A DNA stretch of 64,000 bases, from positions 40,066-104,065 of the forward strand of contig NZ_JAHLPN010000011.1 of the NCBI RefSeq assembly GCF_018917935.1, in the 5' to 3' direction. This document shows, one piece after another, positions 21,959-44,891 of this stretch; positions within the stretch are counted from its first letter, which is position 1; every line of letters starts with the position of its first letter. This DNA is from Kineothrix sp. MSJ-39. Lineage in GTDB: Bacteria > Bacillota > Clostridia > Lachnospirales > Lachnospiraceae. Position numbers and translations under genes: made by a program. A model generated the notes under the pieces. That model was given only the letters and a program-made list of their open reading frames with translations, had not been told where the DNA came from and ran no database searches.

Positions 21959-22120
21959 GAAACATCATATAGCAAGCAATCGATAGCGTAGGCGACTGAG
22001 ATTTATCGCTCGTTTACCCGGCGGCGAGATCGAAACGCTCTTTTTCGACCAGAGCCAGGTAAAATACGAGCAAGATAAATCGCAAGGTAGCCAAGCGTGA
22101 TTGCGGCTATATGATGTTTC
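21959..22120. repeat. 162-bp imperfect palindrome
   Basis: Outer arms GAAACATCATATAGC (21959-21973) and its exact complement (22106-22120). Inside, further complementary pairs stack in order: GCAATC/GATTGC, GATTTATC/GATAAATC, GCTCGT/ACGAGC, TTTACC/GGTAAA, and an apical TCGAAA/TTTCGA. The whole could fold into one long, interrupted hairpin. No coding frame is believable and no poly-T follows. It could be a MITE-like element or a structured RNA at the 3-prime end of lysC. Confidence 0.78.
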
Positions 22121-22188
22121 TGTTTATATGAAATGACTATAAAATGCCAAAATAATTTGGCAAAATGGCACAAAAAGAAAGTAGGGGA

Positions 22189-22217
22189 TTGCGCTTTCAT
22201 AAGTGGAATCGTATACT
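22189..22217 (+). promoter_or_regulatory. Promoter of the secreted-protein gene
   Basis: TTGCGC (22189-22194), 17-bp spacer, TATACT (22212-22217); the ATG is about 44 bp downstream of the -10. Confidence 0.55.
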
Positions 22218-22260
22218 AAAAATGTGTATATCACAATAATTATTTGATATGGAGGGACTT

Positions 22261-22833
22261 ATGAAAAGTAAAAAAGGAATCAAGAAACTTTTAATGGCTC
22301 TTGCACTGGTATTATGTGTTGCTGCATTTGTTCCGGCAACTGCAAGCGTACAGGCAGAGGCAAAAACAAAAACAATAAAGGCATACACGAATTATGAAAA
22401 AAACTACAAGAAGTCGCCAGCTGTTAAACTTGGAGTGACTTATAAGGTTTCTTCACAGAAAAAACGTAGTGCAGTAAAATTTACAGCTCCGAAAGCAGGC
22501 ACATATAAGGTTACGATCAGCAATGCAGCTTCTGTTCCCAAGGCAAAAGACGGAGTAGATATTATGTATGGCACCGCCCATATTAATAAACCATCATCTA
22601 CTGGGCGGTATCTGTTTCCTGAAAAGGTAAAAACACAGGGGGGTAAGAGTTATACATTGTATATGACTACCAATTATTGTTATAACAATTTTGGAAAGGG
22701 GAAAAAAGTAGAAACCTATTTATCTCTGGCAAGCAGATATGGTAAGATTAAGCTTAAAAAGGGAGAAACAATATATATAGATTTCTCATGTACAAGCAAA
22801 AAAAATACTTATAATTTGAAAATTACAAAGTAA
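22261..22833 (+). CDS. Secreted protein of unknown function
   Basis: 190 residues with a clear Sec signal (KKLLMALALVLCVAAFVPATA, predicted cleavage after an Ala near 35-38, split here as visible residues about 9-30). The mature part is basic, rich in Lys, Tyr, Ser and Thr, with beta-rich segments such as APKAGTYKVTISNA, resembling carbohydrate-binding or Ig-like folds common in secreted Lachnospiraceae proteins; no catalytic motif is seen. ATG 22261 follows GGAGGG; the ATG at 22249 overlaps that site. It has its own promoter and terminator and sits in AT-rich accessory DNA. Confidence 0.78.
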   Translation: MKSKKGIKKLLMALALVLCVAAFVPATASVQAEAKTKTIKAYTNYEKNYKKSPAVKLGVTYKVSSQKKRSAVKFTAPKAGTYKVTISNAASVPKAKDGVDIMYGTAHINKPSSTGRYLFPEKVKTQGGKSYTLYMTTNYCYNNFGKGKKVETYLSLASRYGKIKLKKGETIYIDFSCTSKKNTYNLKITK

Positions 22834-22855
22834 GATTTCAATCGAAACTACACAG

Positions 22856-22904
22856 GCGGCGTTTCTGACTTCCCAGGCAGGAAGTTAGGAACGCTGCTTT
22901 TTTT
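22856..22904 (+). terminator. Intrinsic terminator of the secreted-protein gene
   Basis: An 18-bp stem with three G-U pairs (arms 22856-22873 and 22880-22897), 6-nt loop, then TTTTTTT. Confidence 0.9.
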
Positions 22905-22911
22905 ATGATGT

Positions 22912-22995
22912 ATGGCAACAAAAAACATTATTTTAGAACTCAGAACCGGAAGAGGAATGTCGCAGGATGAACTGGCTGATAAGCTTATGGTATGA
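22912..22995 (+). pseudogene. Truncated XRE-type HTH gene remnant
   Basis: ATG opens MATKNIILELRTGRGMSQDE then LADKLMV and a stop, i.e. only the first half of an XRE helix-turn-helix. No intact continuation is found. The following ~300 bp to the AAA gene hold only a short TTG-started frame near 23031 (LKRRADLLIDEKYKRQII) with AGAAGGAG upstream, and otherwise nothing I recognise. Reads as a decayed regulator. Confidence 0.6.
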
Positions 22996-23298
22996 AGCTG
23001 AAGAGTCTATAGAAGGAGATGATTATTCTTGAAGAGAAGAGCAGATCTGCTAATAGATGAAAAGTATAAAAGACAGATTATCTAATCTTGATAGTAAAAG
23101 TTATTCAGCAAAAAATAATATATAATTGGTAGTATTTATTTCTCGTATAGACAGCGCAAATCGATAAATTGGTTACCCACTGCATAAAAATGTGCAAATA
23201 CACATAAAATAGTAATGTCTATTGATTAAATAAACGTTGGATGATACAATATCATTACTAAAAAATGTGTCAAGACACAAAAATAAGGAGTAAAACTC

Positions 23299-24552
23299 AT
23301 GGAGATTAAAAGAGATGCATACCTTGAACAGTTAAGGATAAGAAAAGATAATGGGATGATAAAGATTATCACGGGAATCAGGAGATGCGGAAAATCATTC
23401 CTGTTATTTGTATTGTATAAAAAATATTTATTGGAGAGTGGTGTAGATAATGCCCATATCATTGAGATTGCTTTAGATGGCATTGAAAATGAGGAGCTGA
23501 GAGATCCAAAGAAGTGTTACCAGCATATTAAAGATGCAATGAAAGATGACCAGAAGTATTATCTGCTTTTGGACGAAGTACAGTTTATGCCACGATTTGA
23601 GGAAGTGCTGAACAGCCTGCTTCGTATTAGCAATATTGATGTATATGTGACTGGAAGTAACTCTAAGTTTTTATCCAGCGATATTGTAACTGAATTTAGA
23701 GGCAGAGGAGATGAAATAAGAATATATCCGCTGTCCTTCGCAGAGTTTTATGCGGCTTTTGATGGAGATTATGACGATGCTTGGGAGGAATATATGATAT
23801 ATGGTGGTTTACCACAGGTGGTACAGTTTTCTGTGGAACGCCAAAAGGCTGAGTATCTAAAAAACATTTTCACAAATGTTTATATTAAGGATGTTGTAGA
23901 ACGAAACAAGCTTCAAAATGTTGATGAGATTTATACTTTAGTAGATATTCTTGCTTCTGCGATAGGAGCGCCTACTAATCCAACTAAAATATCAAATACT
24001 TTTAAAAGTGAACGTGGTATCAATTACAGCAATAAGACCATATCCAAACATATAGATTATCTTGTGGAGGCATTTTTGATTTCTAAAGCTGACAGATATG
24101 ATATTAAAGGCAGAAAATATGTGGGAGCAAATCTGAAATACTATTTTTCAGATGTGGGACTTAGAAATGCCAGATTGAATTTTAGACAGCAGGAACCTAC
24201 TCATATCATGGAAAATATTGTTTATAATGAGCTGCTTATCAGAGGCTATAATGTGGATGTTGGTATTGTAGAGGTATATGCAAAAAATGATGAAGGAAAA
24301 ACAACTCGAAAGCAGTTTGAAGTTGATTTTGTAGTCAATCAGGGTAGTCAGAGATATTATATTCAGGTGGCCTATAATATGACTTCTGAGGAAAAACAGA
24401 CGCAGGAACTTAATTCATTTAGAAATATTCCGGATTCGTTTAAAAAGATTGTGATAGTAAACGGAACGAAAAAGCCTTGGAGAAATGAGGAAGGTTTTGT
24501 GATCATGGGAATGAAGTATTTTCTGCTTAATGCGGATAGTTTGGAGTTTTAG
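23299..24552 (+). CDS. AAA_14 ATPase with DUF4143 domain
   Basis: 417 residues. Walker A GIRRCGKS at residues 26-33, Walker B YYLLLDEVQ near 95, a sensor VTGSNS near 125, then a C-terminal DUF4143 domain (about 200-370) with nuclease-like fold. Members are common, variable accessory genes in gut anaerobes; the physiological role is not settled. AAGGAG precedes the ATG. AT-rich codon use differs from flanking core genes, suggesting horizontal origin. Confidence 0.9.
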   Translation: MEIKRDAYLEQLRIRKDNGMIKIITGIRRCGKSFLLFVLYKKYLLESGVDNAHIIEIALDGIENEELRDPKKCYQHIKDAMKDDQKYYLLLDEVQFMPRFEEVLNSLLRISNIDVYVTGSNSKFLSSDIVTEFRGRGDEIRIYPLSFAEFYAAFDGDYDDAWEEYMIYGGLPQVVQFSVERQKAEYLKNIFTNVYIKDVVERNKLQNVDEIYTLVDILASAIGAPTNPTKISNTFKSERGINYSNKTISKHIDYLVEAFLISKADRYDIKGRKYVGANLKYYFSDVGLRNARLNFRQQEPTHIMENIVYNELLIRGYNVDVGIVEVYAKNDEGKTTRKQFEVDFVVNQGSQRYYIQVAYNMTSEEKQTQELNSFRNIPDSFKKIVIVNGTKKPWRNEEGFVIMGMKYFLLNADSLEF

Positions 24553-24553
24553 T

Positions 24554-24784
24554 ATGAAAGAGGAGATACAGCTTCAGGACAAAATGAATTGGATTTTTTA
24601 TAATACAACAGCAGATCTGTCGGAAGCACCGGAAGGAATCAGAGAATTCCTAAGTTATATTGAGAATGAAACTGTGGACGGTGACTTTACAAAATTATTG
24701 GATAAAAAAGTAAAAAATGCAAGACTGAATGAGGATTGGAGGTCGATCACGGAGGCTGAGGCAAGGAAGATGCTGCATCTATAA
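24554..24784 (+). pseudogene. Fragment resembling the C-terminus of an Rpn-family protein
   Basis: A 76-codon frame beginning one base after the AAA gene. Its sequence (LSEAPEGIREFLSYIENE, LLDKKVKNARLNEDWRSITE) resembles the C-terminal part of Rpn/PD-(D/E)XK nuclease-family transposase proteins (compare the Rpn gene at 63117), without the nuclease core. It could still be expressed as a small protein coupled to the AAA gene. Ends overlapping the convergent TetR gene by 6 bp. Confidence 0.5.
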
Positions 24785-25306
24785 GATTAGGCTTCTGACC
24801 ATCTGCGCCATGGCGGCAGGTGTTTCCTGCATACCGCCTTCGAGCCATTTTAAAAACACATTATAAAGGGCACCGGAATAAAAATAGATCTTATAGCGCC
24901 CCACATCATTAAACGGCATATCGCCGATCTGTTCTTCTAACTGCCTGTCGAAAATATCCAGATAGATATAGGCAAGCCCTGCTTTATACACGCATAAGAT
25001 AAAATGCTTGTAAGTCTTGAAGTAACGGAAGATCAATAAGATGGAATCATACCCGAAAAAGTCGTCAGATAGTTTGGCGGCTTTTTTTCTATAATTCTGC
25101 CAGATCTCATCTGTTACTTTGATCAGAACTTCTTCCTTGGAAGCAAAATTCCGGTAATAGGAGGCTCTTGCCACGCCGGCAGTCTGCACGATCTCTGTGA
25201 CTGTAATATCTGAAAAATTTTTCGTTTCCATAAGTTTTGTCAAAGCTCTTGCAATCCGCAGCTTCACAAGGCGGTTTGCTTCCAGTCGTTTATCAGATTC
25301 TTTCAT
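24779..25306 (-). CDS. TetR/AcrR family transcriptional regulator
   Basis: 175 residues; the HTH (NFSDITVTEIVQTAGVARAS, YYRNFASKEE) is at about 30-65 and the ligand-binding part follows. It is divergent from the DegV gene, with two palindromes in the 268-bp gap that fit as its operators. The ligand is not predictable; regulation of the DegV fatty-acid-binding protein is a plausible inference. Confidence 0.9.
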   Translation of the reverse strand: MKESDKRLEANRLVKLRIARALTKLMETKNFSDITVTEIVQTAGVARASYYRNFASKEEVLIKVTDEIWQNYRKKAAKLSDDFFGYDSILLIFRYFKTYKHFILCVYKAGLAYIYLDIFDRQLEEQIGDMPFNDVGRYKIYFYSGALYNVFLKWLEGGMQETPAAMAQMVRSLIL

Positions 25307-33543: not shown

Positions 33544-34521
33544 TTATCTGATATCATCGGAATGATAATGCAGGTAGCCATTCCACATATATTGCCCCAT
33601 ATAGGTATCATATAGAGCCGCCGGATTTTGTGTATAATGGCAATGGTAATTGTTTTCTAAAAGCATCCAGATGTTTCTGGAATGTTGGGAATACATTGCC
33701 GGGTAGCTTTTGGTCAGATCTCTTTTGATAATATAGGCTGGGTAGTCAAAATATTTCAAAAAGGATTCTTCAGAGATAGGATGTCCTGTTTGCTCATGGA
33801 TATAGGCAAGAAGTTTTCCACGATATTGTCCATATGTGCGCAAAGCATCAGCAGTGCAGTTTATCCCCTTGTCACCAAATGATTCAATCAGTTGTCGAGA
33901 CAGGAAAAAGTACAGCAGAGAATAGATTGTGTTCATGACATATAGCCCATCATCATAATGCCACTCTAGTGTTTTTACATTTTGAAATGGACAGGAGATA
34001 GCATGGGTTGGATTTTCAATCCATTTGGTGATAAAGGAGCATTTTTCATCTCCTTGTACTATAATCTTAGGAAGTGTCATTTCCATGTGAGTGTTATAGC
34101 CCTGCCACATGGCGGGATGAAAATTATCACAGTAGATTTTTCCAATTGGTGAACATTCTTGAAGGGGAATATCATCCAACCATTTCCATATATTACTGAA
34201 ATGACAGGCATAAAATTCTTCTTCTGCAGTGTGTTTATCTAAATGAATATATTTTTGTTTCGTTCTTGGATCACGTGGTAGATCGTAATGACCATAAAAA
34301 TTTTCAACATTTCGTTCAAGCCCATGGCTTTCCTGCTCTATTGCCAGCAGACCACCTCTATAGTGACCGTATTCCTTACATGCATCTGCAATACTTTGTT
34401 TTCCTTCTGTACCAAAGCAGATAACGGCTTGTTTGGTTATAAAGTAAAACATTAGGATGTATAAGTTTTCCATAATACTTACCTGATCGGTATAATTCCA
34501 ATCCATATCTTTTATTTTCAT
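33544..34521 (-). CDS. ATC-hydrolase-like protein, paralogue 2
   Basis: 325 residues; resembles the L-2-amino-thiazoline-4-carboxylate hydrolase family (PF14196 type). The module is repeated twice: CFGTEGKQSIADACKEYGHY-RG near residues 35-58 and ESFGDKGINCTADALRTYGQ-YRG near 210-233. No signal or membrane segment. ATG 34521 is chosen since GGAGA lies upstream; upstream codons extend into the neighbouring gene. Lies 10 bp behind its paralogue on the minus strand. ATC hydrolases open a thiazoline ring; whether this member does is unproven. Catalytic residues are not assigned. Confidence 0.75.
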   Translation of the reverse strand: MKIKDMDWNYTDQVSIMENLYILMFYFITKQAVICFGTEGKQSIADACKEYGHYRGGLLAIEQESHGLERNVENFYGHYDLPRDPRTKQKYIHLDKHTAEEEFYACHFSNIWKWLDDIPLQECSPIGKIYCDNFHPAMWQGYNTHMEMTLPKIIVQGDEKCSFITKWIENPTHAISCPFQNVKTLEWHYDDGLYVMNTIYSLLYFFLSRQLIESFGDKGINCTADALRTYGQYRGKLLAYIHEQTGHPISEESFLKYFDYPAYIIKRDLTKSYPAMYSQHSRNIWMLLENNYHCHYTQNPAALYDTYMGQYMWNGYLHYHSDDIR

Positions 34522-34531
34522 AAAATCTCCT

Positions 34532-35530
34532 TTATTTCTCCTGTGTTTTGAGGAACATAATTTTGTTGAAATGATCTGTTGATGTAGTATTGACCTTAAA
34601 TGGGATACCGTAACCATTTAATAAAGCATTATAGATGGTTTCATAATATATATTTCCTACATTCCAGGCATCATATGTATCAAACATTTCAGCGAGCGGA
34701 TCGCGGATTATATGGAGACATATTGTATCCATAGTTTTTGTTTTTTCCATTTTATATCTAGGATCAAGAAAAATATCACCTTGTTCTAAAAAGTTTGTAA
34801 GTGTAAAAGGAATACTTTCGCGCCGATGCAATTCACGCATACGTTCTCCACGATGAAATCCAAAACGATAGATTGCTTCTTTTAGCGTTTTTTCATCAAG
34901 ATCTTCTAATATTGCTTTCCCCATATGAATTAACATGAGACCGAAGATTGTATGTATAGAAGCAATCAGATTACCTTCAAAATCATCCCATGACTGTAAC
35001 TGATAAGGAGCAAGAGGGTAAGGTTTCTGGTTACATTTTCTACAATAGATATAGAAACGACAACAATCTCCACCATTTGTCAGTGTTTCACAGAGATTGA
35101 CCTGCATGGCCGGATCATATCCACCATAAATACGATGGTGTACTTCCTCACAAAAAATAAAGCCAATCTTATGACCATCTGGTAAACAGCCCCACATATC
35201 AGCATCTGGACAACATGTATAGATCATTTTATCAGATTCCTCAGACAACTCTGTTTTAATTTTTGAAGGATCAAATCTGGGATCATTCATTAAATCATAG
35301 TGTTCAGACATGGAAATGAGATTGGCTGGAAGTCCCAAAGAGTCTGTAATACCGCGCATACGAACGCCTCTTGCCTGTCCATAGTCACGTACCCCGTGCC
35401 GGGCAGCAGCTTCACCTTTTTCACCACATAGGTCAATACAAGTTTTGGTAAGAAAATAAAATAATCCTACCCAATAAAATTGCTGTTTTTCTGCCGGATC
35501 TTTTTCGATATATTGTGTTTCAGAAATCAT
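34532..35530 (-). CDS. ATC-hydrolase-like protein, paralogue 1
   Basis: 332 residues, same two-module plan as its neighbour: CGEKGEAAARHGVRDYGQAR-G near residues 36-56 and EKTLKEAIYRFGFHRGER near 220-240. Contains a Cys-rich middle (CCRFYIYCRKCNQK near 157-170) that could bind metal. AAGGAGG precedes the ATG, with a -10 TATAAT only ~25 bp upstream. First gene of a two-gene minus-strand unit, divergent from the aminotransferase operon. Family assignment to PF14196-like proteins is from motif memory. Confidence 0.77.
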   Translation of the reverse strand: MISETQYIEKDPAEKQQFYWVGLFYFLTKTCIDLCGEKGEAAARHGVRDYGQARGVRMRGITDSLGLPANLISMSEHYDLMNDPRFDPSKIKTELSEESDKMIYTCCPDADMWGCLPDGHKIGFIFCEEVHHRIYGGYDPAMQVNLCETLTNGGDCCRFYIYCRKCNQKPYPLAPYQLQSWDDFEGNLIASIHTIFGLMLIHMGKAILEDLDEKTLKEAIYRFGFHRGERMRELHRRESIPFTLTNFLEQGDIFLDPRYKMEKTKTMDTICLHIIRDPLAEMFDTYDAWNVGNIYYETIYNALLNGYGIPFKVNTTSTDHFNKIMFLKTQEK

Positions 35531-35552
35531 GATATCAACCTCCTTTTTACGT

Positions 35553-35589
35553 ATTATAGGAGCCGGAATGAAAAAATAATTGTAAAAAA
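35553..35589 (-). promoter_or_regulatory. Promoter of the ATC-hydrolase-like pair with TTTTTTACAAT box
   Basis: On the minus strand TATAAT (35558-35553) lacks a consensus -35, but TTTTTTACAAT (35589-35579) ends 20 bp upstream; its TTTACA is 22 bp from the -10. The same box and spacing precede the ABC importer at 41396, so both may be activated by one regulator. Confidence 0.5.
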
Positions 35590-35641
35590 TGAACTAGGAA
35601 TGGCTATAAATTTTATTTATAAGGTTATAATTGAAAAAAAT

Positions 35642-35670
35642 TTGAAGTGAAAAAAAATATGTGATAATAT
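35642..35670 (+). promoter_or_regulatory. Promoter of the aminotransferase operon
   Basis: TTGAAG (35642-35647), 17-bp spacer, TAATAT (35665-35670). Transcript would begin near 35677 and include a leader terminator. Confidence 0.6.
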
Positions 35671-35702
35671 ACGGAAAAATTAAAAAATTTGTCAAGATAA
35701 AG

Positions 35703-35737
35703 GAGTCATTTGCAGGTGTGCAAAGACTCTTTTTTTA
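35703..35737 (+). terminator. Leader terminator before the aminotransferase gene
   Basis: Stem GAGTC+TTTGCA / TGCAAA+GACTC with one bulge and GGTG loop, then eight T. It lies between promoter and start codon, so the operon may be attenuated. Confidence 0.8.
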
Positions 35738-35753
35738 TAGAAGGAGGAAAAAA

Positions 35754-36941
35754 ATGGTTTTTAAAAGAGTAGATCAGATTGCTGCATCTAAAACAATGGA
35801 ATTTACTGCAAGAGTAAAGAATATGATAAGGAATGGCGTGGATGTTATAGACTTTAGTGTAGGTGAGCCGGATTTTCAGACTCCGGATTTTATTAAGAAA
35901 GCAGGAAAAAAAGCTATTGATGAAAATCATACGAAATATACAGCAGTAAATGGAATTGTAGAGTTAAGAAAAGCAATTGCAAGAAAACTTGAAATAGAAA
36001 ACAATGTTTCTTATACAGAAGAACAGATCTGCGTGGGAACAGGTGCAAAGCAGCCGCTTTTTAATGCTGTATTTACAGTTTGCGATGAGGGTAGTGAAGT
36101 AATTATACCAACACCGAGTTGGGTTAGCTATGAAGAAATGGTGAAGCTGGCAGGTGGCATTCCTGTTTTTGTGCCATGCAATGATAAAAATGGATTTGGG
36201 TTGGATATTTCTGAAATTGAAAAAGTGATTACAGAAAGAACTCGCGCGATTATTATTAATTCACCGAACAATCCAACTGGAGCAGTGTATGGAGAAAAGG
36301 AACTTCGGAAATTAGGAGAATTGGCCATAAAACATGATTTTTATATTATTAGCGATGAAGTTTATGAAAAACTTGTATTTGAGGGAAAATTTTGTTCAGT
36401 TGCATCGTTGTCACCGCAAATAAAGGAGCATTGTATTTTGATCAATGGACTCTCAAAATCTTATGCAATGACAGGCTGGAGAATTGGCTATGCAGCAGCC
36501 GCAGAAAAAGTGATAAATGCGATGAAAAAAATACAAAGTCATACAACATCTGCGAGCAATTCAATTACACAGTATGCTGCGCTTGCAGCCTATGAGGAGG
36601 ATCCGGATAAAGTGAAGTATATGGTAGATTCCTACAGAGATAGAAGAAATTATATATTACATAGAATTTCAGAGATGAATTTTGTACAGGCATCAAAAGC
36701 AAGTGGAACTTTTTATGTGTTTTTGAATATTGAAAAATTATTGGGAAGAACATACAGAGGAGAGACAATTATTTCTTCTATGCAGCTTGCGCAGTTATTA
36801 CTGATACATGCACATATAGCTGTAATCGCGGGGGAGGCTTTTCATGCATCTAATTATGTGCGAATCTGTTATGCGGTTTCACAAGAGGACATTGCAAATG
36901 GGATGAATCGTTTGGATAAATTCTTAAAAGAGGTGATATAA
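35754..36941 (+). CDS. Class I/II pyridoxal-phosphate aminotransferase
   Basis: 395 residues, AspC/AspB-like fold type I. Visible: FSVGEPDFQTPDFI near residue 40, NSPNNPTGAVYGEKEL near 170, and the PLP-lysine segment NGLSKSYAMTGWRIGYA near 235. Cytosolic. It probably removes the amino group of the amino acid released by the neighbouring peptidases; amino acid specificity cannot be read. AGAAGGAGG lies upstream. One bp separates it from the 2-hydroxyacid dehydrogenase, a pairing that would turn an amino acid into the keto and then the hydroxy acid. Confidence 0.93.
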   Translation: MVFKRVDQIAASKTMEFTARVKNMIRNGVDVIDFSVGEPDFQTPDFIKKAGKKAIDENHTKYTAVNGIVELRKAIARKLEIENNVSYTEEQICVGTGAKQPLFNAVFTVCDEGSEVIIPTPSWVSYEEMVKLAGGIPVFVPCNDKNGFGLDISEIEKVITERTRAIIINSPNNPTGAVYGEKELRKLGELAIKHDFYIISDEVYEKLVFEGKFCSVASLSPQIKEHCILINGLSKSYAMTGWRIGYAAAAEKVINAMKKIQSHTTSASNSITQYAALAAYEEDPDKVKYMVDSYRDRRNYILHRISEMNFVQASKASGTFYVFLNIEKLLGRTYRGETIISSMQLAQLLLIHAHIAVIAGEAFHASNYVRICYAVSQEDIANGMNRLDKFLKEVI

Positions 36942-36942
36942 A

Positions 36943-37851
36943 ATGAAAAAGGTGTTTTTGAGGGATGAGATTCATTACGAAGCTTTGAAGCAATTAGAGA
37001 AAAATGTACAGATCATAAATGATTGGGACAAGATAGAAGATGTGGATGCAATTCTTGTTCGTAAAATAAAAGTCCCAGATGAAGTCATTTTAAACTCAAA
37101 AAAACTGAAGGTGATTGGATTTCATGGAAGTGGAATGAATGGTATAAATCTAGATCTTGCAAGGCAAAAGGGAGTGGATGTATTTGCAGTTCCGGGGCTT
37201 AATGCACAGTCCGTGGCAGAACTAAATGTTGCTCTTGCATTGGATATTGCACATATGGTTACATGGTCTGCCTGTGATATAAAACAGGGAATTAGCATGC
37301 AGGATGGGCTTCATCGATTCCGAGGACATGAATTAAGTGGGAAAGTTGCCGGTATTATTGGAATGGGAGCAGTCGGAAAAAGAACAGCGCAAATACTGCG
37401 AGATGCTTTTCAGATGCGGGTATACGGATATGCAAGATCTTTCACTGATGAAAAAGCGGAAGAACTTCATATTCAATGTGCAAAATCCATGGATGAATTA
37501 CTGGAGTGTGCAGATTTCATATTCCTGGCCATTCCATACACGACGCAGACTAGAGATATGATTAGTTACAAGGAACTGCTAAAAATGAAGAAAACGGCAT
37601 ACTTAATCAATACAGCAAGAGGCGGAATTGTAAATGAAGAGGATCTGTGCAGAGCATTAAAAGAAGGTCAGATTTCAGGCGCTGGTTTTGATGTATTTAA
37701 GGAGGAACCGGTAAGGGTGGAGAATCCGCTGCATAGATTTCCTAATTTTATATCTACACCACATATTGCAGGAAATAGTGAGGAAGCATTATATCGAGTT
37801 GGAATGGGTGTTGTAGATGGAATTTTGCAAAGGCTGCAAATCCTTTCATAG
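36943..37851 (+). CDS. D-2-hydroxyacid dehydrogenase
   Basis: 302 residues, NAD-dependent 2-hydroxyacid dehydrogenase family (SerA/LdhA-like). Nucleotide motif IIGMGAVGKRTAQIL near 142; active-site segments INTARGGIVNEEDL (Arg near 228), a Glu in FDVFKEEPV near 255 and STPHIAG (His near 275). Length excludes the regulatory ACT tail of SerA. Probably reduces the keto acid made by the upstream aminotransferase. AAGAGGTG upstream overlaps the aminotransferase end. Confidence 0.92.
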   Translation: MKKVFLRDEIHYEALKQLEKNVQIINDWDKIEDVDAILVRKIKVPDEVILNSKKLKVIGFHGSGMNGINLDLARQKGVDVFAVPGLNAQSVAELNVALALDIAHMVTWSACDIKQGISMQDGLHRFRGHELSGKVAGIIGMGAVGKRTAQILRDAFQMRVYGYARSFTDEKAEELHIQCAKSMDELLECADFIFLAIPYTTQTRDMISYKELLKMKKTAYLINTARGGIVNEEDLCRALKEGQISGAGFDVFKEEPVRVENPLHRFPNFISTPHIAGNSEEALYRVGMGVVDGILQRLQILS

Positions 37852-37865
37852 AAGGAGTGGAATTC

Positions 37866-39794
37866 ATGAAGACAATAGATATCAAAACAATAATAGAGTC
37901 AGAGATACCTCAGAAAATATTATGCAGCAAAGAAACGGAGGACATATATCTTCAGTTTCGCGTAACAGAAAATGCGGTGTACAAAAATGTCATAAAGAAA
38001 TGGAATCAACAGGAAGGTATTTTTGTGTATGTGACTGATGGTGAGAATGCAGTACTTTCCCCGTCTGGTCGCTGGCTGGCATTTTCAAGAAGGCAGGAAG
38101 CGGAGAATGCTATATTTCTGCTAAATACAAGGACGGGGGGAATAAAAAGAATAACATCCTGCGTAAGACCAGATGATATGCAGTGGTCGGCAGATGAAAA
38201 AAAACTTTTATTTACATGTGCTTGCTTTCAGAAAAGGCAGCCAGAAGATGTTCCTGTACTGGAAACTGCAAGATGGATGGATCGTTTGAAATTTAAAACC
38301 GATAGACTTGGATATAGTGATGGTACATTTCGGCAAATAGGGTTATACGATCTTGTCAAAAAAGAGCTGGAGATTATTACAGCAGGAAGGATAGATTATA
38401 CCTGCCCGTGTTTTGTGGGAAAGGAAAAAATTGCATATGTAGCTGTACCTAATAAATCGGATAATTCTGATGAGGCTTTTTTATTTATTTACAACATGGT
38501 AAAAAAGGAGGAAAAAAAATATCGTGGACCAGGAGGCCCGATTCATCATCTGCTAGCTGTTCCTGAAAAAAATATGATTTTTGTATTAGCCCATGATAAT
38601 CACTTGTGGGAGGCAACTAATTTCAGCCTGTTTCAGTTTAATATGAAGGATGAGTTATGGGAAGCATTATTAAAAAGAGAGGATTTATATCTGGGCAATT
38701 GTGTAGATAATGATACCGGATATGATAATCAGGAGTATTCTCTTTTATGGGATGCGGAAAAAGAGGAAATCATTTTTCCTATTGTTACAAATTATAAAGT
38801 TAAGCTTGCAAAGTTTTTATTAAAAGAAAAAAAGTTGGAAACGATATATGAAGAACAAGATGTGGTTTTTTTGACAGGAATGTGCAAGGAAGGAATATTA
38901 ATGCTATCTTCTGCAGAAGATTGTCTGGCAAGATTGAATTTATTAATGGAAAACCAAAAGATTTGTATATGGGAGAGTAATCTGAATAGCAGACGGTATA
39001 AGTTTTCTACAAGTGAGTCATTTGAGTATTTGGATGCACAGAATAAAAAAAGAGTGGGGCATTATTTTCATACAGAGAATCCACCAAAAGGTTTGGTGTT
39101 ATTGATCCATGGGGGACCGCATTATTGTTTTGGATATGATTTTTCTTTTGATATTCAATTTCTAACAGAAAATAACTATAATGTGGTGCTGTGTAATCCA
39201 ACAGGAAGTATTGGTTATGGAGAATTACACGCGAAAGGAACTTATCACGATTGGGGAGGTAAGGACTACATAGAGATCATGAACTGTATTAAGACGGCAC
39301 GGGAAAAATTTGCAATGGGAAAATATCCAGTTTCTGTCATGGGAGGAAGCTATGGTGGATTTATGACGAACTGGATTATTGGTCATACGGATTTTTTTTG
39401 CTGCGCAATCTCTGAACGAAGTACTTGTAACCGATATAGTCAGGCTGGAACAAGTGATTGTGCATTTCGTTATGGTATGTTTGAGTTTAATGGGACAGCA
39501 TGGGAGCATCCATTACATTATATGGAACATTCACCAATCAGTTATGTGAAAAATGTTAACACGCCAGTGCTATTGTTACATGGAGACGCAGATATGAATT
39601 GTTCTATTGAACAGAGTGAAGAGTGGTTTTCAGCTTTGCGTATGGAAGGGAAAGAGGCTTATTTAGCTATTTTTCCGAAAGAATTTCATGATTATAAAGC
39701 AATTGGATCACCTGCAAGCCGCAGAGATAGATATCGTCTAATTTTATGGTGGCTTGATAAATACATGATGGAGGGAGGCCGGAAATATGCTTGA
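37866..39794 (+). CDS. S9 family serine peptidase (acylaminoacyl-peptidase-like)
   Basis: 642 residues: an N-terminal beta-propeller (about 30-380) and a C-terminal alpha/beta hydrolase domain. Catalytic Ser in MGGSYGGFMTNW (near 498), Asp in LLLHGDADMN (near 580), His in FPKEFHDYK (near 610); oxyanion loop LIHGGPHY near 415. No signal peptide, so cytosolic cleavage of short or N-acylated peptides is expected. The ATG at 37866 lies 8 bp after GAAGGAG; an earlier GTG overlaps that site. Overlaps the next gene by 8 bp. Confidence 0.93.
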   Translation: MKTIDIKTIIESEIPQKILCSKETEDIYLQFRVTENAVYKNVIKKWNQQEGIFVYVTDGENAVLSPSGRWLAFSRRQEAENAIFLLNTRTGGIKRITSCVRPDDMQWSADEKKLLFTCACFQKRQPEDVPVLETARWMDRLKFKTDRLGYSDGTFRQIGLYDLVKKELEIITAGRIDYTCPCFVGKEKIAYVAVPNKSDNSDEAFLFIYNMVKKEEKKYRGPGGPIHHLLAVPEKNMIFVLAHDNHLWEATNFSLFQFNMKDELWEALLKREDLYLGNCVDNDTGYDNQEYSLLWDAEKEEIIFPIVTNYKVKLAKFLLKEKKLETIYEEQDVVFLTGMCKEGILMLSSAEDCLARLNLLMENQKICIWESNLNSRRYKFSTSESFEYLDAQNKKRVGHYFHTENPPKGLVLLIHGGPHYCFGYDFSFDIQFLTENNYNVVLCNPTGSIGYGELHAKGTYHDWGGKDYIEIMNCIKTAREKFAMGKYPVSVMGGSYGGFMTNWIIGHTDFFCCAISERSTCNRYSQAGTSDCAFRYGMFEFNGTAWEHPLHYMEHSPISYVKNVNTPVLLLHGDADMNCSIEQSEEWFSALRMEGKEAYLAIFPKEFHDYKAIGSPASRRDRYRLILWWLDKYMMEGGRKYA

Positions 39795-40569
39795 AGAGCT
39801 GAGAAAATACCTTGAACCATATCCAGAAGGGTTGGGGGTGGTAATAGAAAAACTGGATTCTGGGGAAAGACTTAATTGGCATGCTGGAGACAGGTTCCCT
39901 TCTGCCAGTTTGATTAAACTTCCTATTATGTATTGTTTTTTGGAACTTGTATCAGAAGGAAAAGAGAACTTGGAAGACATACATGTACTCAGGGAGAATG
40001 ACAAGGTAGGAGAAAGCGTATATGATACGGGTATTCTACGAGATCTACATGAAGGTATTGGGCTTACTTTGGAAGATTGTATGCGACTGATGATTGATAT
40101 CAGTGATGATACAGCAACAAACTTGATTATGAAGCGTATGTCCTTTTCGTATATGAATGAAAATTTTATCCGCTATGGTTTACACGAGACTATGGTGGGA
40201 AGGTATATGATGGAATATGATGGAGTGCAGAAGGGAAGAGATAATTTTACTTCGGCAAAAGATACTAATGTTTTATTAAAACTTCTTTTGGAGGGAACAT
40301 ATTTGTCAGGGAAGTGTAAAGAACTTGCTTTAGATGTATTGATGAAGCAGCGGGAAAATGATGGACTGAATAAATATCTGCCGCAGGAAATTGTCTATGC
40401 ACATAAATGTGGCTGCATAAAACAGTATCAACTGGACCATGAATGTGGCATTTTATATAAAGATGGTAATCCATTTTTGCTATTTAATTTTTGCTCCTGT
40501 AATATTTCTGATTCAAGAAAACTGATGAATCAGTTGGGAAAAGAAATATACAACATGTATTATTCATAG
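39787..40569 (+). CDS. Cytosolic class A beta-lactamase-fold serine hydrolase
   Basis: 260 residues, class A beta-lactamase superfamily. SxxK is in FPSASLIKLP (Ser near 40); the second motif is SDD (ISDDTATN) instead of SDN; the third is KCG (AHKCGC) instead of KTG. There is no signal peptide or anchor, unlike true beta-lactamases or penicillin-binding proteins. It is translationally coupled to the S9 peptidase (8-bp overlap). This suggests hydrolysis of an imported amide, lactam or ester in the cytosol rather than antibiotic resistance. Substrate unknown. Confidence 0.87.
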   Translation: MLEELRKYLEPYPEGLGVVIEKLDSGERLNWHAGDRFPSASLIKLPIMYCFLELVSEGKENLEDIHVLRENDKVGESVYDTGILRDLHEGIGLTLEDCMRLMIDISDDTATNLIMKRMSFSYMNENFIRYGLHETMVGRYMMEYDGVQKGRDNFTSAKDTNVLLKLLLEGTYLSGKCKELALDVLMKQRENDGLNKYLPQEIVYAHKCGCIKQYQLDHECGILYKDGNPFLLFNFCSCNISDSRKLMNQLGKEIYNMYYS

Positions 40570-40624
40570 AAAATCAAAAGGCGACAGATAGTCAAAGAAA
40601 TTAATAACTCGGAGGTGAATCTCT

Positions 40625-41380
40625 ATGAATTATAAAACATTTTGGTTACCGCCTAATGCGGAATATGTAGAATACATAGTCAATGATTCTTTGGTCAATA
40701 AATTTTTTGAAGTAAACAACCCGGATCGTAAGGAAATTGTAATCAATGTACCGGATGGATGTGTAAATATCTGGTTTTTATTTAAACATAATAAGTGTCA
40801 TGCCAGAATTGTGGGGAGTGGGATTGAGGGTGTCCGTTCGATGGTAAGCGATACGGAAAAATGTTTTGGTGTTAAGTTTAATGCAGGGGTTCTTCCTATA
40901 AAATTGATGGATGAAGACAAATGTATTATGAATGAGAATTATGCGCTAAATCAGTATATCAATGTGGAAGAACTGGAGCATTTAATGGAAAAAAGTGAAA
41001 GCCCTGAGGATAGAATGCAGGTTTTTACAGATTACAGTGACCGTTTTGGTACAGTTATGGCAGATCAGATCACACAGATGGTAATTCAGTATATTAATGA
41101 AAAAAATGGAAATGCAGATATTAAGGTAATGGCAGATGAACTTGGCTATTGTCAGCAATATCTGAGTCGGGTGTTTAAAAAAATGGTAGGTATGCCCATG
41201 AAACAGTATGCTCGTATTGTACGAACACAATATGCGTTTTCACAGATCAAAAAGGAACCGACAGCGGAAATCTGCGATGTGTTGGGATATTATGATCAGC
41301 CGCATTTTATAAAAGAATTTAAAAAGTATTCCATGATGACGCCGAATGAGGCATATAATACAGCATATCATTTTGTGTAA
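40625..41380 (+). CDS. AraC family transcriptional regulator
   Basis: 251 residues. N-terminal ~145 residues form a DUF6597-like sensor; the C-terminal double HTH (ADIKVMADELGYCQQYLSRV, then TAEICDVLGYYDQPHFIKEF) is typical AraC. CGGAGGTG lies before the ATG. Central in the island, so the probable activator of both the importer and the catabolic genes. Two promoters in the island lack a good -35 and share TTTTTTACAAT, as expected for activator-dependent promoters. Confidence 0.92.
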   Translation: MNYKTFWLPPNAEYVEYIVNDSLVNKFFEVNNPDRKEIVINVPDGCVNIWFLFKHNKCHARIVGSGIEGVRSMVSDTEKCFGVKFNAGVLPIKLMDEDKCIMNENYALNQYINVEELEHLMEKSESPEDRMQVFTDYSDRFGTVMADQITQMVIQYINEKNGNADIKVMADELGYCQQYLSRVFKKMVGMPMKQYARIVRTQYAFSQIKKEPTAEICDVLGYYDQPHFIKEFKKYSMMTPNEAYNTAYHFV

Positions 41381-41395
41381 GGGAAAATAAGTTAA

Positions 41396-41432
41396 TTTTT
41401 TACAATGCAAACGAAGAAAGATATCATATAAT
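41396..41432 (+). promoter_or_regulatory. Importer promoter with TTTTTTACAAT box
   Basis: TTTTTTACAAT (41396-41406) and TATAAT (41427-41432); TTTACA to -10 is 22 bp, too long for a normal sigma-A spacer. Same arrangement as at 35589-35553 on the other strand. Confidence 0.5.
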
Positions 41433-41445
41433 AAAATCGTTACAA

Positions 41446-41485
41446 GGGTGTAATTGCAAGGAAGCAGTTGCACTCTTTATTTTTT
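41446..41485 (+). terminator. Leader terminator before the importer operon
   Basis: A 12-pair stem with G-U pairs, GGGTGTAATTGC / GCAGTTGCACTC, 6-nt loop, followed by a T-rich tract, between the -10 and the ribosome site. Confidence 0.7.
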
Positions 41486-41504
41486 ATTTTAAGGAGGAAA
41501 TTTT

Positions 41505-42440
41505 ATGAAAAGAAAACTAATGTTAGCAGTATGTATGGCAGTGAGTACTTGCATGATTTTGGCAGGATGTGGAAACAATGCAGCTGATACAGAAACAGCA
41601 GCAGAGGATGTAATTGTTGAAGAAAGTAATACACAGGAAGAAACGGATACGGAAAGCATGGATACAGATAGTGAAGAGTCTGCAACAGATGGAGTGCAGG
41701 TAACACCACCATCTAAGCTGTTGAAGGAAGGAACTTTAACGTATGCCATCAATGCCAATTTCCCACCATATGAATATCTTGACGACGAACAGAACATAAC
41801 CGGTTTTGATGTGGAATATGTACAGGCTATGGCAGATCTGATGGGACTTGATGTTGAGATTGTAGATATGCAATGGGATAACCTGATTACTTCTTTACAG
41901 GCTGGTCGTGTGGATATTGTAAATTCTGCTGTATATATTAATCCGGAAAGAGAAAAAGTAGTTGATTTTGTTCCATACATGTATATAGGTGAGATTATTC
42001 TGGTAAATGGAAATTCTGATTATGACTTTACGGATACGGATGGATTATCTGGTTTGAAGGTTGGTGTAATTACAGGGTCTATTGAAGAGACCTACTGTAA
42101 TACTTTTAACGAAGAATTTGCAGAAAAAGGTATGGATCCAATCGATATCCATTCTTTACCGAGTTTAAATGATTCTTTGGTTTCACTGGCATCCGGTCAG
42201 CTTGATGCAACATTAACATCATCTGCAACAGCTGCCTACATGGAGATGGAACAGCCGGGGACTTATAAGACAGTTGCATCTTTTGCATTGGATGATGTAT
42301 TAGGTATTTGTGTACAGAAAGGTGATACGGAAATGGCAGATGCACTTACCGAGTGCGCCAAGATTTTGTATGACAATGGGACCTATACGGAATTAATGAG
42401 TAAGTATGGTATTTCAGATACTATGAGTTACTGGAAATAG
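41505..42440 (+). CDS. Amino acid ABC transporter substrate-binding lipoprotein
   Basis: 311 residues. Lipoprotein signal with lipobox LAGC (Cys near 23), an acidic Glu/Thr/Ser linker, then a family 3 solute-binding domain (YAINANFPPYEYLDDEQNIT, GFDVEYVQAMADLMGL, GLKVGVITGSIEE). Binds polar amino acids or analogues outside the membrane. First gene of a complete SBP-permease-ATPase set. AAGGAGG precedes the ATG. Confidence 0.94.
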   Translation: MKRKLMLAVCMAVSTCMILAGCGNNAADTETAAEDVIVEESNTQEETDTESMDTDSEESATDGVQVTPPSKLLKEGTLTYAINANFPPYEYLDDEQNITGFDVEYVQAMADLMGLDVEIVDMQWDNLITSLQAGRVDIVNSAVYINPEREKVVDFVPYMYIGEIILVNGNSDYDFTDTDGLSGLKVGVITGSIEETYCNTFNEEFAEKGMDPIDIHSLPSLNDSLVSLASGQLDATLTSSATAAYMEMEQPGTYKTVASFALDDVLGICVQKGDTEMADALTECAKILYDNGTYTELMSKYGISDTMSYWK

Positions 42441-42477
42441 AATCATTATCGAAAAGTGAAATAAAAGGAATGTTACT

Positions 42478-43170
42478 ATGACAATTCAGGGTATATGGGA
42501 AATATTTTCAACAAAAATGCTGATAGAGGGTGCGGTCATGACTTTAAAGTTGACTGCACTGTCAGAAGCATTATCCATTATAATTGGTTTTTTTCTGGCA
42601 CTGATTAAGATCAGTAAATGTAAGCCGCTATCAAAAATAATTGATGTTTATATTTGGATCTTTCGTGGTTTGCCTTTGATTCTTGTTTTGATATTTGTTT
42701 ATAATGTTTTTCCGCAGTGGGGAATAAAATTAAGTGTCTTTCAGGCAGCGGTCTTTTCACTTGTTTTAAATGAAACTGCTTATATGGTAGAAATTATGAG
42801 AAGTGGTCTCATGTCAGTGGATGCAGGACAAAAACGTGCTGCTAAGGTATTGGGATTAAATAATATACAGGTTTTATGGTATATTACACTGCCGCAGGCA
42901 GTACGAGTTTTAATTCCGCCAATTGGAAATAATTTGATTGGTATGCTCAAGACTTCTTCTATGGCATCTGTTATCAGCTGCGGAGATCTGATGAGGAGAG
43001 CTAATCAGATTGCAGCTTCTAATTTCAGATATGCAGAAACCTTGATAGCAGCCGGTATTTATTATCTGTTATTTTCAGCAATATTAGCATGGATTCTTCG
43101 AATTATGGAAAATCATTTTGATATCCAAATTGCAAGAACGAAGAGAAGAAAAAAAGAGGAAGCAAGATGA
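42478..43170 (+). CDS. Amino acid ABC transporter permease
   Basis: 230 residues, HisM/GlnP type with about five spans and the EAA loop near residues 120-140 (QKRAAKVLGLNNIQVLWYIT). Functions as homodimer with the ATPase downstream, which overlaps by 4 bp. Confidence 0.93.
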   Translation: MTIQGIWEIFSTKMLIEGAVMTLKLTALSEALSIIIGFFLALIKISKCKPLSKIIDVYIWIFRGLPLILVLIFVYNVFPQWGIKLSVFQAAVFSLVLNETAYMVEIMRSGLMSVDAGQKRAAKVLGLNNIQVLWYITLPQAVRVLIPPIGNNLIGMLKTSSMASVISCGDLMRRANQIAASNFRYAETLIAAGIYYLLFSAILAWILRIMENHFDIQIARTKRRKKEEAR

Positions 43171-43904
43171 AACCAGTAATAATACAAGCAAAGAATGTAA
43201 AAAAAGTATACGGACATGCAACGATTTTAAAAGATGTATCTATGGATATAAGTCTGGGTGAAAAGATTGTTTTGATAGGTCCTTCCGGATCAGGAAAGTC
43301 TACACTTTTGCGCTGTATGGCAGGGTTAGAAGCTGTGGATTCAGGTTCCGTATCTTATTGCAATACACCAATCATGGACAAAAAACTTTACGAGCAGACA
43401 GACATTGGTGTGATATTCCAGTCTTTTGATCTGTTTAAACATTTGACGGCAAAGGAAAATATAATGCTTGCACCTATGAAGGTAAAACATGTATCTAAAA
43501 GTGATGCAGAAAAAAAGGCAATGGAATTGTTAGAACTTGTGCATTTGTCAGAACGTGCGGATTATTATCCGGACGAACTGTCTGGCGGACAACAGCAGCG
43601 TATTGCCATTGCAAGAGCTCTGGCAATGGAACCAAGGCTGATGTTTTTCGATGAACCTACATCTGCACTTGATCCAGAGATGACAGTGGAGGTTTTGGAT
43701 ATTATCGTCGAGCTGGTAAAAAAAGGAATGACTGTTTTTATTGTAACGCATGAGATGGAATTTGCTCGCAGGGTAGGAGATCGAGTGATCTTTATGGATG
43801 CTGGTGACATTATTGCGGATATGAAACCAGAGGAATTGAATCTTGAAACGGTATCAAACCCCAGAATTCGTCAGTTTTTGAGCCAGCTTAGTCAATATAA
43901 TTAG
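43167..43904 (+). CDS. Amino acid ABC transporter ATP-binding protein
   Basis: 245 residues, GlnQ type. Walker A GPSGSGKSTLLR near 36, Q-loop GVIFQSFDLF near 87, signature LSGGQQQRIAIARAL near 140, Walker B LMFFDEPTSALDPE near 160, H-loop VTHEM near 195. Completes the importer. Confidence 0.96.
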   Translation: MKPVIIQAKNVKKVYGHATILKDVSMDISLGEKIVLIGPSGSGKSTLLRCMAGLEAVDSGSVSYCNTPIMDKKLYEQTDIGVIFQSFDLFKHLTAKENIMLAPMKVKHVSKSDAEKKAMELLELVHLSERADYYPDELSGGQQQRIAIARALAMEPRLMFFDEPTSALDPEMTVEVLDIIVELVKKGMTVFIVTHEMEFARRVGDRVIFMDAGDIIADMKPEELNLETVSNPRIRQFLSQLSQYN

Positions 43905-43976
43905 ATAATCTGTAAAAATGACTGAATCCGACAGCATCAAGAAACAGGAAGGAATAAAATTGGGTTATAAGAAAAG

Positions 43977-44891
43977 ATGATAAATGTATTATTACAGCAG
44001 GTGTTTGTGATGTTTTTTTTGATATTAGTTGGTATATACTGTCGTTATCGAAGAATCGTAACTGACATCGGAAAAAAGACAATTTCAAATCTGGTGCTGT
44101 ATGTGATATTACCATTTAATATTATACATGCATATCTTGTAGATCTTGAATCAGATTTCTGGATTAGTTTTTATCAGATTATTTTAGTGACTATTTTATA
44201 TCAGGTTGCTGCGGGAATCATTTGTATTTGGGGTTACAAGAATGTAGAAAAGGAGAATAGATGTATTTATCAGTATGCGACGATGTGTTCCAATGCTGGC
44301 TTCATTGGAAATGCAGTCGCTGAGGCAGTATATGGACAGCTGGGGCTGATATATGCATCTATTTTTTTGATCCCACAAAGAATTATGATGTGGACAGTAG
44401 GAATCTCTTTTTTTGAAAAACAGAATAGAAAAAATGCACTTTTAAAGATTTTGACACATCCATGCATGATGGCAACGGGATTGGGAATGATTCTTCTTCT
44501 TTTTCAGATTCATTTGCCACAAGTATGTGTAAAAATGATTACAAGCGTCAGTAATTGTTGTAATGCTCTGACAATGATGTACTTGGGAATGGTATTGTAT
44601 GGGATGAATATAAAAAAAGTGATAAAAAAAAGACAGTTGTATTATTCTTTTATCAGACTCGTATTAATACCAGGTGCAGTATTTATTTTGTGTAGACTGT
44701 TGAGTATAGATAGACTTGCAGCACAGGTGTGTGTCATATTAGCAGGTATGCCTGCTGGAAGCACAACAGCAATCTTGGCAACGCAATATCATAAGGATGA
44801 AGAGGAAGCAGTCGGATGTGTGTGTGGCAGTACCTTATTATCTATGTTTACTATTATTTTATGGGGATATCTTTGCTCTATGTTTTTATAG
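43977..44891 (+). CDS. AEC family transporter (auxin efflux carrier type)
   Basis: 304 residues, about ten spans. Pattern VMFFLILVGIYCRYRRIVTD and YATMCSNAGFIGNAVAEAVY (the conserved N-G-x-x-G region) and a late AGMPAGSTTAIL match AEC permeases for malate or related organic acids. It might export the hydroxy acid produced by the dehydrogenase. Its ribosome site is poor; AGGAAGGA lies ~25 bp upstream, followed by a six-codon TTG frame that ends in an ATGA overlap with this start, which may give coupled initiation. Confidence 0.88.
   Translation: MINVLLQQVFVMFFLILVGIYCRYRRIVTDIGKKTISNLVLYVILPFNIIHAYLVDLESDFWISFYQIILVTILYQVAAGIICIWGYKNVEKENRCIYQYATMCSNAGFIGNAVAEAVYGQLGLIYASIFLIPQRIMMWTVGISFFEKQNRKNALLKILTHPCMMATGLGMILLLFQIHLPQVCVKMITSVSNCCNALTMMYLGMVLYGMNIKKVIKKRQLYYSFIRLVLIPGAVFILCRLLSIDRLAAQVCVILAGMPAGSTTAILATQYHKDEEEAVGCVCGSTLLSMFTIILWGYLCSMFL

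Follow-up and report, generated by a model that had tools for sequence, protein, structure and literature searches.

An AT-rich island of eleven genes couples two-domain ATC_hydrolase-family proteins to an S9 peptidase: a candidate unit for cysteine-like salvage

In the window, that is, the whole 64-kb stretch of DNA from Kineothrix sp. MSJ-39 that was analysed, positions 33544–44891 hold an AT-rich island of eleven genes that combines a doublet of ATC_hydrolase-family proteins with an S9 peptidase, three further enzymes, a regulator, an importer and a carrier. Its gene content, the conservation of its order in one relative, and the co-occurrence of the S9 peptidase with the two-domain ATC protein are established, and the evidence supports inheritance of the island as a single unit that includes its own importer and regulator. 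As for its function, we tentatively favour the catabolism of a small cysteine-like compound, either cyclic (thiazoline- or hydantoin-type) or peptide-bound, as the candidate substrate. A family named after one Pseudomonas enzyme would then gain defined partners and a pathway that can be tested, in bacteria that likely are gut anaerobes. The ATC doublet and S9, which recur together, are a clean handle for locating and assaying such clusters.

Composition and gene content of the island

The earlier note had described a low-GC island of eleven genes with its own AraC regulator, importer and carrier, and this description was confirmed by the open reading frames, by the family searches (Pfam for 10 of the 11 genes, NCBIfam for the ABC ATPase) and by base composition. 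The GC content is 0.365 for the island versus 0.447 for the remainder of the window, individual genes range from 0.343 to 0.395, and the minimum-GC 11.3-kb segment of the 64 kb, located in steps of 100 bases, begins at 33601. All eleven gene calls stood, and the start of ATC2 was corrected from 34617 to about 34521; coordinates are given after start trimming, the start regions of ATC2 and of the aminotransferase having been read individually.

The ATC genes, separated by 10 bases, are on the reverse strand, and all other genes of the island are on the forward strand. The divergent spacer between ATC1 and the aminotransferase gene (35531–35753, 223 bases, defined by spacing) presumably holds both promoters. 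A sigma-70-like site (11/12) is found there at 35695–35666 on the reverse strand, such sites not being enriched in the scanned region over shuffled sequence (44 versus 49.9 ± 8.8). Spacing is tight among the enzyme genes, with gaps of 1 base between aminotransferase and dehydrogenase and of 14 bases between dehydrogenase and S9, and an overlap of 8 bases between S9 and the beta-lactamase-fold gene; permease and ATPase overlap by 4 bases. A terminator-like hairpin with a 14-pair stem and a T run (41444–41477, forward strand) separates the regulator from the importer genes, the scanned region having 9 terminator-like sites against 5.6 ± 2.8 in shuffles.

ATC2 (33544–34521, 325 aa, 39 bits) and ATC1 (34532–35530, 332 aa, 55.5 bits in two stretches) both exceed the gathering cut-off of PF14196, ATC_hydrolase (28.1 bits), and each is about twice as long as that domain. 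A search of about 5.8 billion proteins with ATC1 gave 24 at an E of 1e-5 or lower, and C107, C127, E128, E129, H131, H132, C147, E148 and C157 are invariant in the 24 rows of their alignment (A1). The N half of ATC2, as aligned, retains three of the Cys, with the CEEVHH box reading CDNFHP and the NLCET box absent. From these sequences, ATC1 is likely a ring-opening hydrolase, the ATC-hydrolase activity being a prediction that carries a family name over to a divergent two-domain clade. A profile search of solved structures with an ATC protein gave a sole match, at E 0.61 and unrelated.

The aminotransferase (35754–36941, 395 aa; PF00155, 261 bits) is of the class I, aspartate-type, PLP-dependent kind. 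Its nearest solved relatives, such as 6f35, 1j32 and 1bjw (E 6e-90 to 2e-86), mostly bear the name aspartate aminotransferase, and the Lys of the AKQ motif is conserved in 6/6 aligned rows; it falls below the cut-off of the archaeal-type aspartate aminotransferase model NF041091 (445.6 versus 550 bits). The dehydrogenase (36943–37851, 302 aa) belongs to the D-2-hydroxyacid dehydrogenase family (PF02826, 180 bits; PF00389, 64 bits) and is below the phosphoglycerate dehydrogenase cut-off (TIGR01327, 232.2 versus 454 bits). The closest solved structures are the PGDH entries 1wwk and 9whb and 8wpo, named McyI by its depositors, which we take to be the microcystin-pathway dehydrogenase.

The S9 protein (37866–39794, 642 aa) is of the prolyl-oligopeptidase/acylaminoacyl type and has both the PF00326 domain (152.7 bits versus 22.6) and the residues S495, D576 and H608, which do not vary across the clade alignment (A2, 28 rows) and are assigned by motif as the Ser-Asp-His triad. 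Its sequence places it in a cluster-associated S9 clade. The nearest solved structures are the S9 peptidases 8wt1 and 7ep9 and the acyl-peptide hydrolase 5yzm, and it scored below the NCBIfam cut-offs for Dpp5 (95.1 versus 900 bits) and for the Atxe2 lasso isopeptidase (38.3 versus 400 bits). The beta-lactamase-fold serine hydrolase (39787–40569, 260 aa; PF13354, 164.6 bits) is likewise below the class A beta-lactamase cut-off (NF033103, 79.5 versus 200 bits). Class A motifs are SxxK, SDN-like, KTG-like and an omega-loop Glu; in this protein SxxK, SDD and HK-x-G are invariant in 10 aligned rows (two short matches, P0152 and P0153, left out), the third motif being HKCG in five, HKTG in three and HKGG in two; the loop reads R-x-MM-[ED]-Y, a sequence in which the position of the omega-loop Glu is not assignable. 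By eye this protein has no apparent leader and is therefore likely cytoplasmic, as S9 also is likely to be.

The remaining genes encode an AraC-family regulator (40625–41380, 251 aa; PF12833, 49.9 bits); a polar-amino-acid-type solute-binding lipoprotein (41505–42440; PF00497, 123 bits) with, by eye, a lipobox-like ILAGCG close to its N terminus; an ABC importer permease (42478–43170; PF00528, 95.5 bits); a GlnQ-like ABC ATPase (43167–43904), whose best NCBIfam model, GlnQ, scored 286.8 bits, under the cut-off of 379; and a membrane carrier of the auxin-efflux-carrier (AEC) family (43977–44891; PF03547, 87.8 bits), whose predicted cargo is the acid product or a second substrate.

Conservation and co-occurrence

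A Lachnospiraceae MAG (L029) carries all eleven genes in identical arrangement at 56–90% identity, including ATC2 (71%), the regulator (82%), the permease (90%) and the ATPase (85%). Its island differs by one extra LysR gene, and its AEC gene is cut by the contig end (66% identity over 176 aa). The recurrence of the same arrangement there makes the island more than chance. A full-length S9 relative (39–56% identical) lies, within the stretches of DNA examined, near a two-domain ATC protein in all six other genomes that the genome scan found, and the beta-lactamase-fold protein and the dehydrogenase were each seen in 3/6, counts limited by contig ends. When entries are paired by the length of their longest contig, 7 of the 24 ATC entries have a partner among the 29 S9 entries of the clade, and none has one among the non-clade S9 entries (89 of the 90 listed compared). 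Among 392 genomes of the order, with the first 3 to 5 candidates scored in each, a single genome, the window's own, has the two-domain ATC protein, and it is likewise the only one with a member of the S9 clade. Four more distant ATC relatives had none of these partner genes. The earlier note had asked for conserved neighbourhoods and had read the genes as a single unit; the association that was found (the L029 island, S9 with ATC in 6/6) argues against its refutation, and the L029 arrangement together with the order sample bears out the single co-inherited unit.

Cysteine-like salvage and the genes beside ATC in relatives

In the route that we favour, the compound would enter via the ABC importer, and S9 and the beta-lactamase-fold amidase would cut away an acyl or peptide partner to free the ring or amino acid. 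ATC1, perhaps with ATC2, would then open the ring by hydrolysis, giving an N-carbamoyl amino acid, at a site in the N half of ATC1 formed by three Cys and the Glu/His box. A carbamoylase encoded outside the island, about 60 kb away, would free the amino acid, cysteine or an aspartate analogue, which the aspartate-type aminotransferase would convert to a 2-oxo acid and the dehydrogenase would reduce, probably with NADPH, to a D-2-hydroxy acid, serving as an electron sink. The hydroxy acid would leave by the AEC carrier, and the AraC regulator would sense the compound. The order of these steps, the export and the identity of the substrate are what we infer from the gene set.

The steps recall the Pseudomonas conversion of DL-ATC to L-cysteine by ATC racemase, L-ATC hydrolase and N-/S-carbamyl-L-cysteine amidohydrolase, with L-cysteine desulfhydrase. 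In two relatives (L030 and L036), ATC1 is directly followed by an M20 carbamoylase, and this by an Asp/Glu/hydantoin racemase (PF01177, which we assumed to be the family of the ATC racemase); the carbamoylase also directly follows ATC1 in a third (L031), where a relative of L-cysteine desulfidase (E 1.3e-27, residues 12–425 of 428) is in the same gene run. These neighbours resemble the published route of racemase, hydrolase and carbamyl-cysteine amidohydrolase (PMC10821248), and the cysteine/thiazoline idea gains indirect support from them. The likeness extends to the Pfam family itself. At the level of protein families and gene content, the island differs in that its ATC proteins are two-domain and divergent, in that it adds S9, the beta-lactamase-fold hydrolase, the aminotransferase and the D-2-hydroxyacid dehydrogenase, and in what it lacks: Pfam and NCBIfam searches found no M20-type carbamyl-cysteine amidohydrolase and no racemase among its eleven genes. 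The only PF01177 match of the genome is on another contig, and a search of this genome for a full-length desulfidase relative gave a single match, 32% over 118 residues. A hydantoinase/carbamoylase-family gene is found elsewhere on the island's contig (308.7 bits versus a cut-off of 204). Also counting against this reading, the type of importer varies, being SBP_bac_3 in the window and SBP_bac_8/6 in L030 and L036.

In its adjacent aminotransferase and D-2-hydroxyacid dehydrogenase genes the island also resembles the reductive branch of amino-acid fermentation in clostridia, where a transaminase and a D-2-hydroxyacid dehydrogenase lead to 2-hydroxyacids; unlike that branch it has no dehydratase or CoA-transferase, and it couples the pair to amidase-type and ATC-type enzymes. 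In line with the favoured route, a 40% identical relative of the dehydrogenase (L123) lies near genes read by eye as encoding a lactate permease and subunits of a 2-hydroxyacyl-CoA dehydratase.

A narrower form of this idea, which we consider improbable, is the salvage of cyanide-cysteine adducts in herbivore-gut anaerobes. Here 2-aminothiazoline-/iminothiazolidine-4-carboxylate would occur free and as an N-terminal peptide cap, S9 would be an acyl-peptide hydrolase that releases iminothiazolidine, the two-domain ATC would open the ring, and cysteine would exit in the form of mercaptolactate; microbes would thus complete the minor route by which the host detoxifies cyanide. If the substrate were a thiazoline or such an adduct, this would provide a microbial fate for a compound whose study has centred on its use as a marker of cyanide exposure.

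Alternative readings

The main rival, possible though on the unlikely side, is hydantoin or ureide catabolism, in which ATC would act on a hydantoin-like ring and an aspartate-like product would pass through an aspartate dehydrogenase or aminotransferase to a malate-like hydroxy acid; if true, ureide breakdown would gain a further, new enzyme for ring opening. Since L030 and L036 carry hydantoinases, and these two and L031 aspartate-dehydrogenase-like genes, an aspartate-type or ureide substrate can also be read from the neighbours, so that the cysteine/thiazoline substrate of the earlier note is supported indirectly by the genes beside ATC in relatives, and this rival would explain some of those genes about as well. 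About 60 kb upstream of the island, the window's genome has a locus of its own with a carbamoylase, a hydantoinase and an aspartate-dehydrogenase-like gene; the hydantoinase is 71–75% identical to those of L030 and L036, and this genome shares with all three relatives the carbamoylase (49–53%), the aspartate-dehydrogenase-like protein (55–57%) and a PRK06207-type aminotransferase (62–68%). The hydantoinases of this genome and of L030 pass the allantoinase AllB cut-off (TIGR03178; 379.3 and 369.7 versus 357.85 bits), and the aminotransferase adjoining the former passes that for aspartate aminotransferase type Ic (560.9 versus 435). Against the rival, the islands of the window and of L029 have neither hydantoinase nor carbamoylase, L031 has the desulfidase relative, a scan of its genes after the first five ORFs showed no hydantoinase, and the tie to the locus 60 kb off is circumstantial. 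The likeness to allantoin and ergothioneine-thiohydantoin catabolism (AllB/AllC; ErtD/ErtE) likewise stops at the hydantoinase and M20 pair, as the M20 proteins of the own genome and L030 are below the allantoate deiminase AllC cut-off (TIGR03176; 252 and 229.4 versus 597.75 bits) and both genomes miss those of ErtD (346 and 358.3 versus 650) and ErtE (325.3 and 311.4 versus 520). These catabolic gene sets are not known to include either a two-domain ATC protein or an S9 peptidase as partner.

Ordinary fermentation of peptides and amino acids is a doubtful alternative, in which the S9, beta-lactamase-fold, aminotransferase and dehydrogenase enzymes would handle imported peptides and the ATC proteins would be ligand-binding sensor or chaperone domains. 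The importer for polar amino acids and the breadth of the enzyme classes fit it, and the structure model of ATC1 (pLDDT 89) resembles, by weak matches, Bet3/TRAPP, H-NOX and phenol-sensing V4R domains. PF14196 is described as similar to V4R and HNOB domains, its fold family includes sensors, and the resemblance of the ATC1 halves to that superfamily (the phenol sensors PoxR and MopR; H-NOX; TRAPP Bet3) extends to a conserved Cys cluster. ATC1 differs, however, in its tandem duplication, in a Cys set confined to the N half, and in lying among catabolic enzymes with no attached signalling domain.

That the island instead makes a small hydroxy-acid or cyclic product for export by AEC is very unlikely: the exporter-type carrier and McyI, among the closest solved relatives of the dehydrogenase, would suit it, but an ABC importer is co-inherited, most of the enzymes are hydrolases, and no ligase or synthetase is present in the island or among the scanned cluster genes of relatives. 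A chance assembly of unrelated genes in a foreign low-GC segment is hardly credible, for all that the segment is compositionally distinct and that another species of the genus (G177, 84% complete) has neither ATC doublet nor S9, being disfavoured by the L029 arrangement, the order sample, the pairing of ATC entries with the S9 clade, the recurrence of partners in six genomes and an S9-dehydrogenase fusion-like protein (P0030) on a metagenome contig.

Layout and origin of the island

The eleven genes within 33544-44891 form one unit. ATC2 and ATC1, both of the ATC-hydrolase family (PF14196), are on the minus strand, and the genes for the aminotransferase (AT), D-2-hydroxyacid dehydrogenase (DH), S9 peptidase (S9), beta-lactamase-fold hydrolase (BLA) and AraC regulator are on the plus strand. 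A terminator-like hairpin (41444-41477) separates AraC from the importer genes (SBP, PERM, ATPase) and the carrier gene AEC, which lie 3' of it. The GC content of the island is 0.365, against 0.447 in the remaining window, and the 11.3-kb window of lowest GC begins at 33601. A second dip (0.33-0.37; 22001-25000) surrounds genes that, by eye, encode a secreted-type protein and an AAA-type ATPase.

Read in the same way, the flanks look like ordinary chromosomal genes, one flank having MATE carriers and a MerR regulator and the other MscL and threonyl-tRNA synthetase. Megablast against plasmid records gave no match. Because neither S9 nor the ATC doublet was found in the genome of the one other species of the genus that was compared (84% complete), the island was likely acquired by the window's genome.

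Conservation and co-occurrence

Of about 5.8 billion proteins searched, 24 fell into the two-domain ATC1 clade with E values no higher than 1e-5. A scan of species genomes for ATC relatives gave 34 pattern matches, with a relative encoded at 12 loci; eight of these (L029-L036; seven contigs, L030 and L033 being one, and six genomes by record title) encode proteins 39-72% identical to ATC1. L029 holds all eleven genes arranged as in the window, with identities from 56% (S9) to 90% (PERM), an extra LysR gene inserted between ATC1 and AT, and AEC truncated by the contig end. Within the DNA fetched, an S9 relative (39-56% identical across most of its length) and the importer ATPase were found in all six genomes, AT in five, and DH and BLA in three each; L034, a contig of 5.2 kb, lacks S9, which this genome has on L036. 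At the other four loci (L037-L040), S9, AT, DH and BLA were not seen. One of them, from a Sphingomonadaceae MAG (L040:1650-6926), carries a 1758-aa frame in which 56 residues of ATC1 are matched at 59%.

As a control, longest-contig sizes were compared between protein lists. Seven were common to the 24 ATC entries (7/24) and the 29 S9 entries of the clade (its 28 aligned proteins and the fragment P0028), and none was common to the ATC entries and the 90 listed S9 proteins outside the clade, P0030 being excluded from both sets. P0030 (606 aa, on a 2.6-kb metagenome contig) joins the S9 catalytic part and then DH in a single protein, the gene order of L031; it could be a genuine fusion or the product of misassembly. 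Among 392 genomes of the order, with no more than the first 3 or 5 candidates scored in each, S9 was matched at 1e-60 in 25 and the ATC profile at 1e-10 in seven. Only the window's genome had a clade-level S9 (941.5 bits vs 251.5 for the next) and matched the full two-domain profile, the other six matches spanning about one domain. DH was found in six genomes of this sample at 1e-50; in the five besides the window's genome it was 36-41% identical, and the remaining island enzymes were not found nearby.

Related clusters and a second locus

L030 and L036 carry, in a row, an aminotransferase of the PRK06207 type (AT2), an aspartate-dehydrogenase-like gene (AspDH), ATC1, an M20 carbamoylase, an Asp/Glu/hydantoin racemase and a hydantoinase, while L031 carries AspDH, AT, AT2, ATC1, M20, S9, DH and an L-cysteine-desulfidase relative. 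Their ATC1 relatives are 50-52% identical to ATC1, and M20 lies directly 3' of ATC1 in all three. L031 continues (L108:771-6594) into nitrogenase-like D and K, NifH-like, NifB-like and AnfO-like genes, starting about 17 b after its importer ATPase; a second nitrogenase-like set is present in the same genome (L109). By analogy with methylthio-alkane reductases, carbon-sulfur cleavage by the first set is conceivable.

On the contig that carries the island, some 60 kb upstream, a second locus (C11:245-13751) encodes its own polar-type amino-acid importer, a carbamoylase, a hydantoinase, an aspartate aminotransferase of type Ic, a D-2-hydroxyacid dehydrogenase, an AspDH-like protein and AT2. It also has a cytidylate-kinase-like gene, whose family is present in L036. 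Since four of its genes are clear relatives of the L030, L031 and L036 modules (hydantoinase, 71-75% identical to L030 and L036; AT2, 62-68%, AspDH, 55-57%, and M20, 49-53%, to the counterparts in all three), the set joined in L030 and L036 seems to be divided over two loci in the window's genome. This split fits a shared pathway and, equally, two separate salvage loci. Elsewhere in this genome, a single-domain PF14196 gene adjoins, by eye, an amidohydrolase and a GntR-type regulator (L048:261-2850, contig C22), and two more lie on contigs C8 and C2.

Proposed pathway

As outlined in a review (PMC10821248), the Pseudomonas DL-ATC route leads from a racemase through L-ATC hydrolase to N- or S-carbamyl-cysteine and by an amidohydrolase to cysteine, on which a desulfhydrase follows. 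In gene content, the sets of L030, L031 and L036 resemble this route as described there; together they offer, by analogy, the best clue to the island chemistry, though one drawn from clusters whose ATC1 differs from that of the island at about half of its positions. Tentatively, we favor a pathway in which a cysteine-like compound would be imported, released from an amide or peptide, ring-opened, decarbamoylated, transaminated and finally reduced, the steps past gene identity being those that we infer. The main rival, rather unlikely in our judgment, is the breakdown of hydantoins or ureides, enzymes for which would include the hydantoinases of L030, L036 and the second locus. That the island salvages cyanide-cysteine adducts is a bold and quite improbable reading, prompted by a minor mammalian route, described in a review (PMC9291117), from cyanide and cystine to aminothiazoline or iminothiazolidine carboxylate.

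A gut habitat of the island-related genomes is judged from record titles only, which include a chicken label (L032) and the species name avicola (L035) and give no habitat for L030 and L031. Other titles bear SUG and RUG labels, which we take to denote sheep and rumen genomes.
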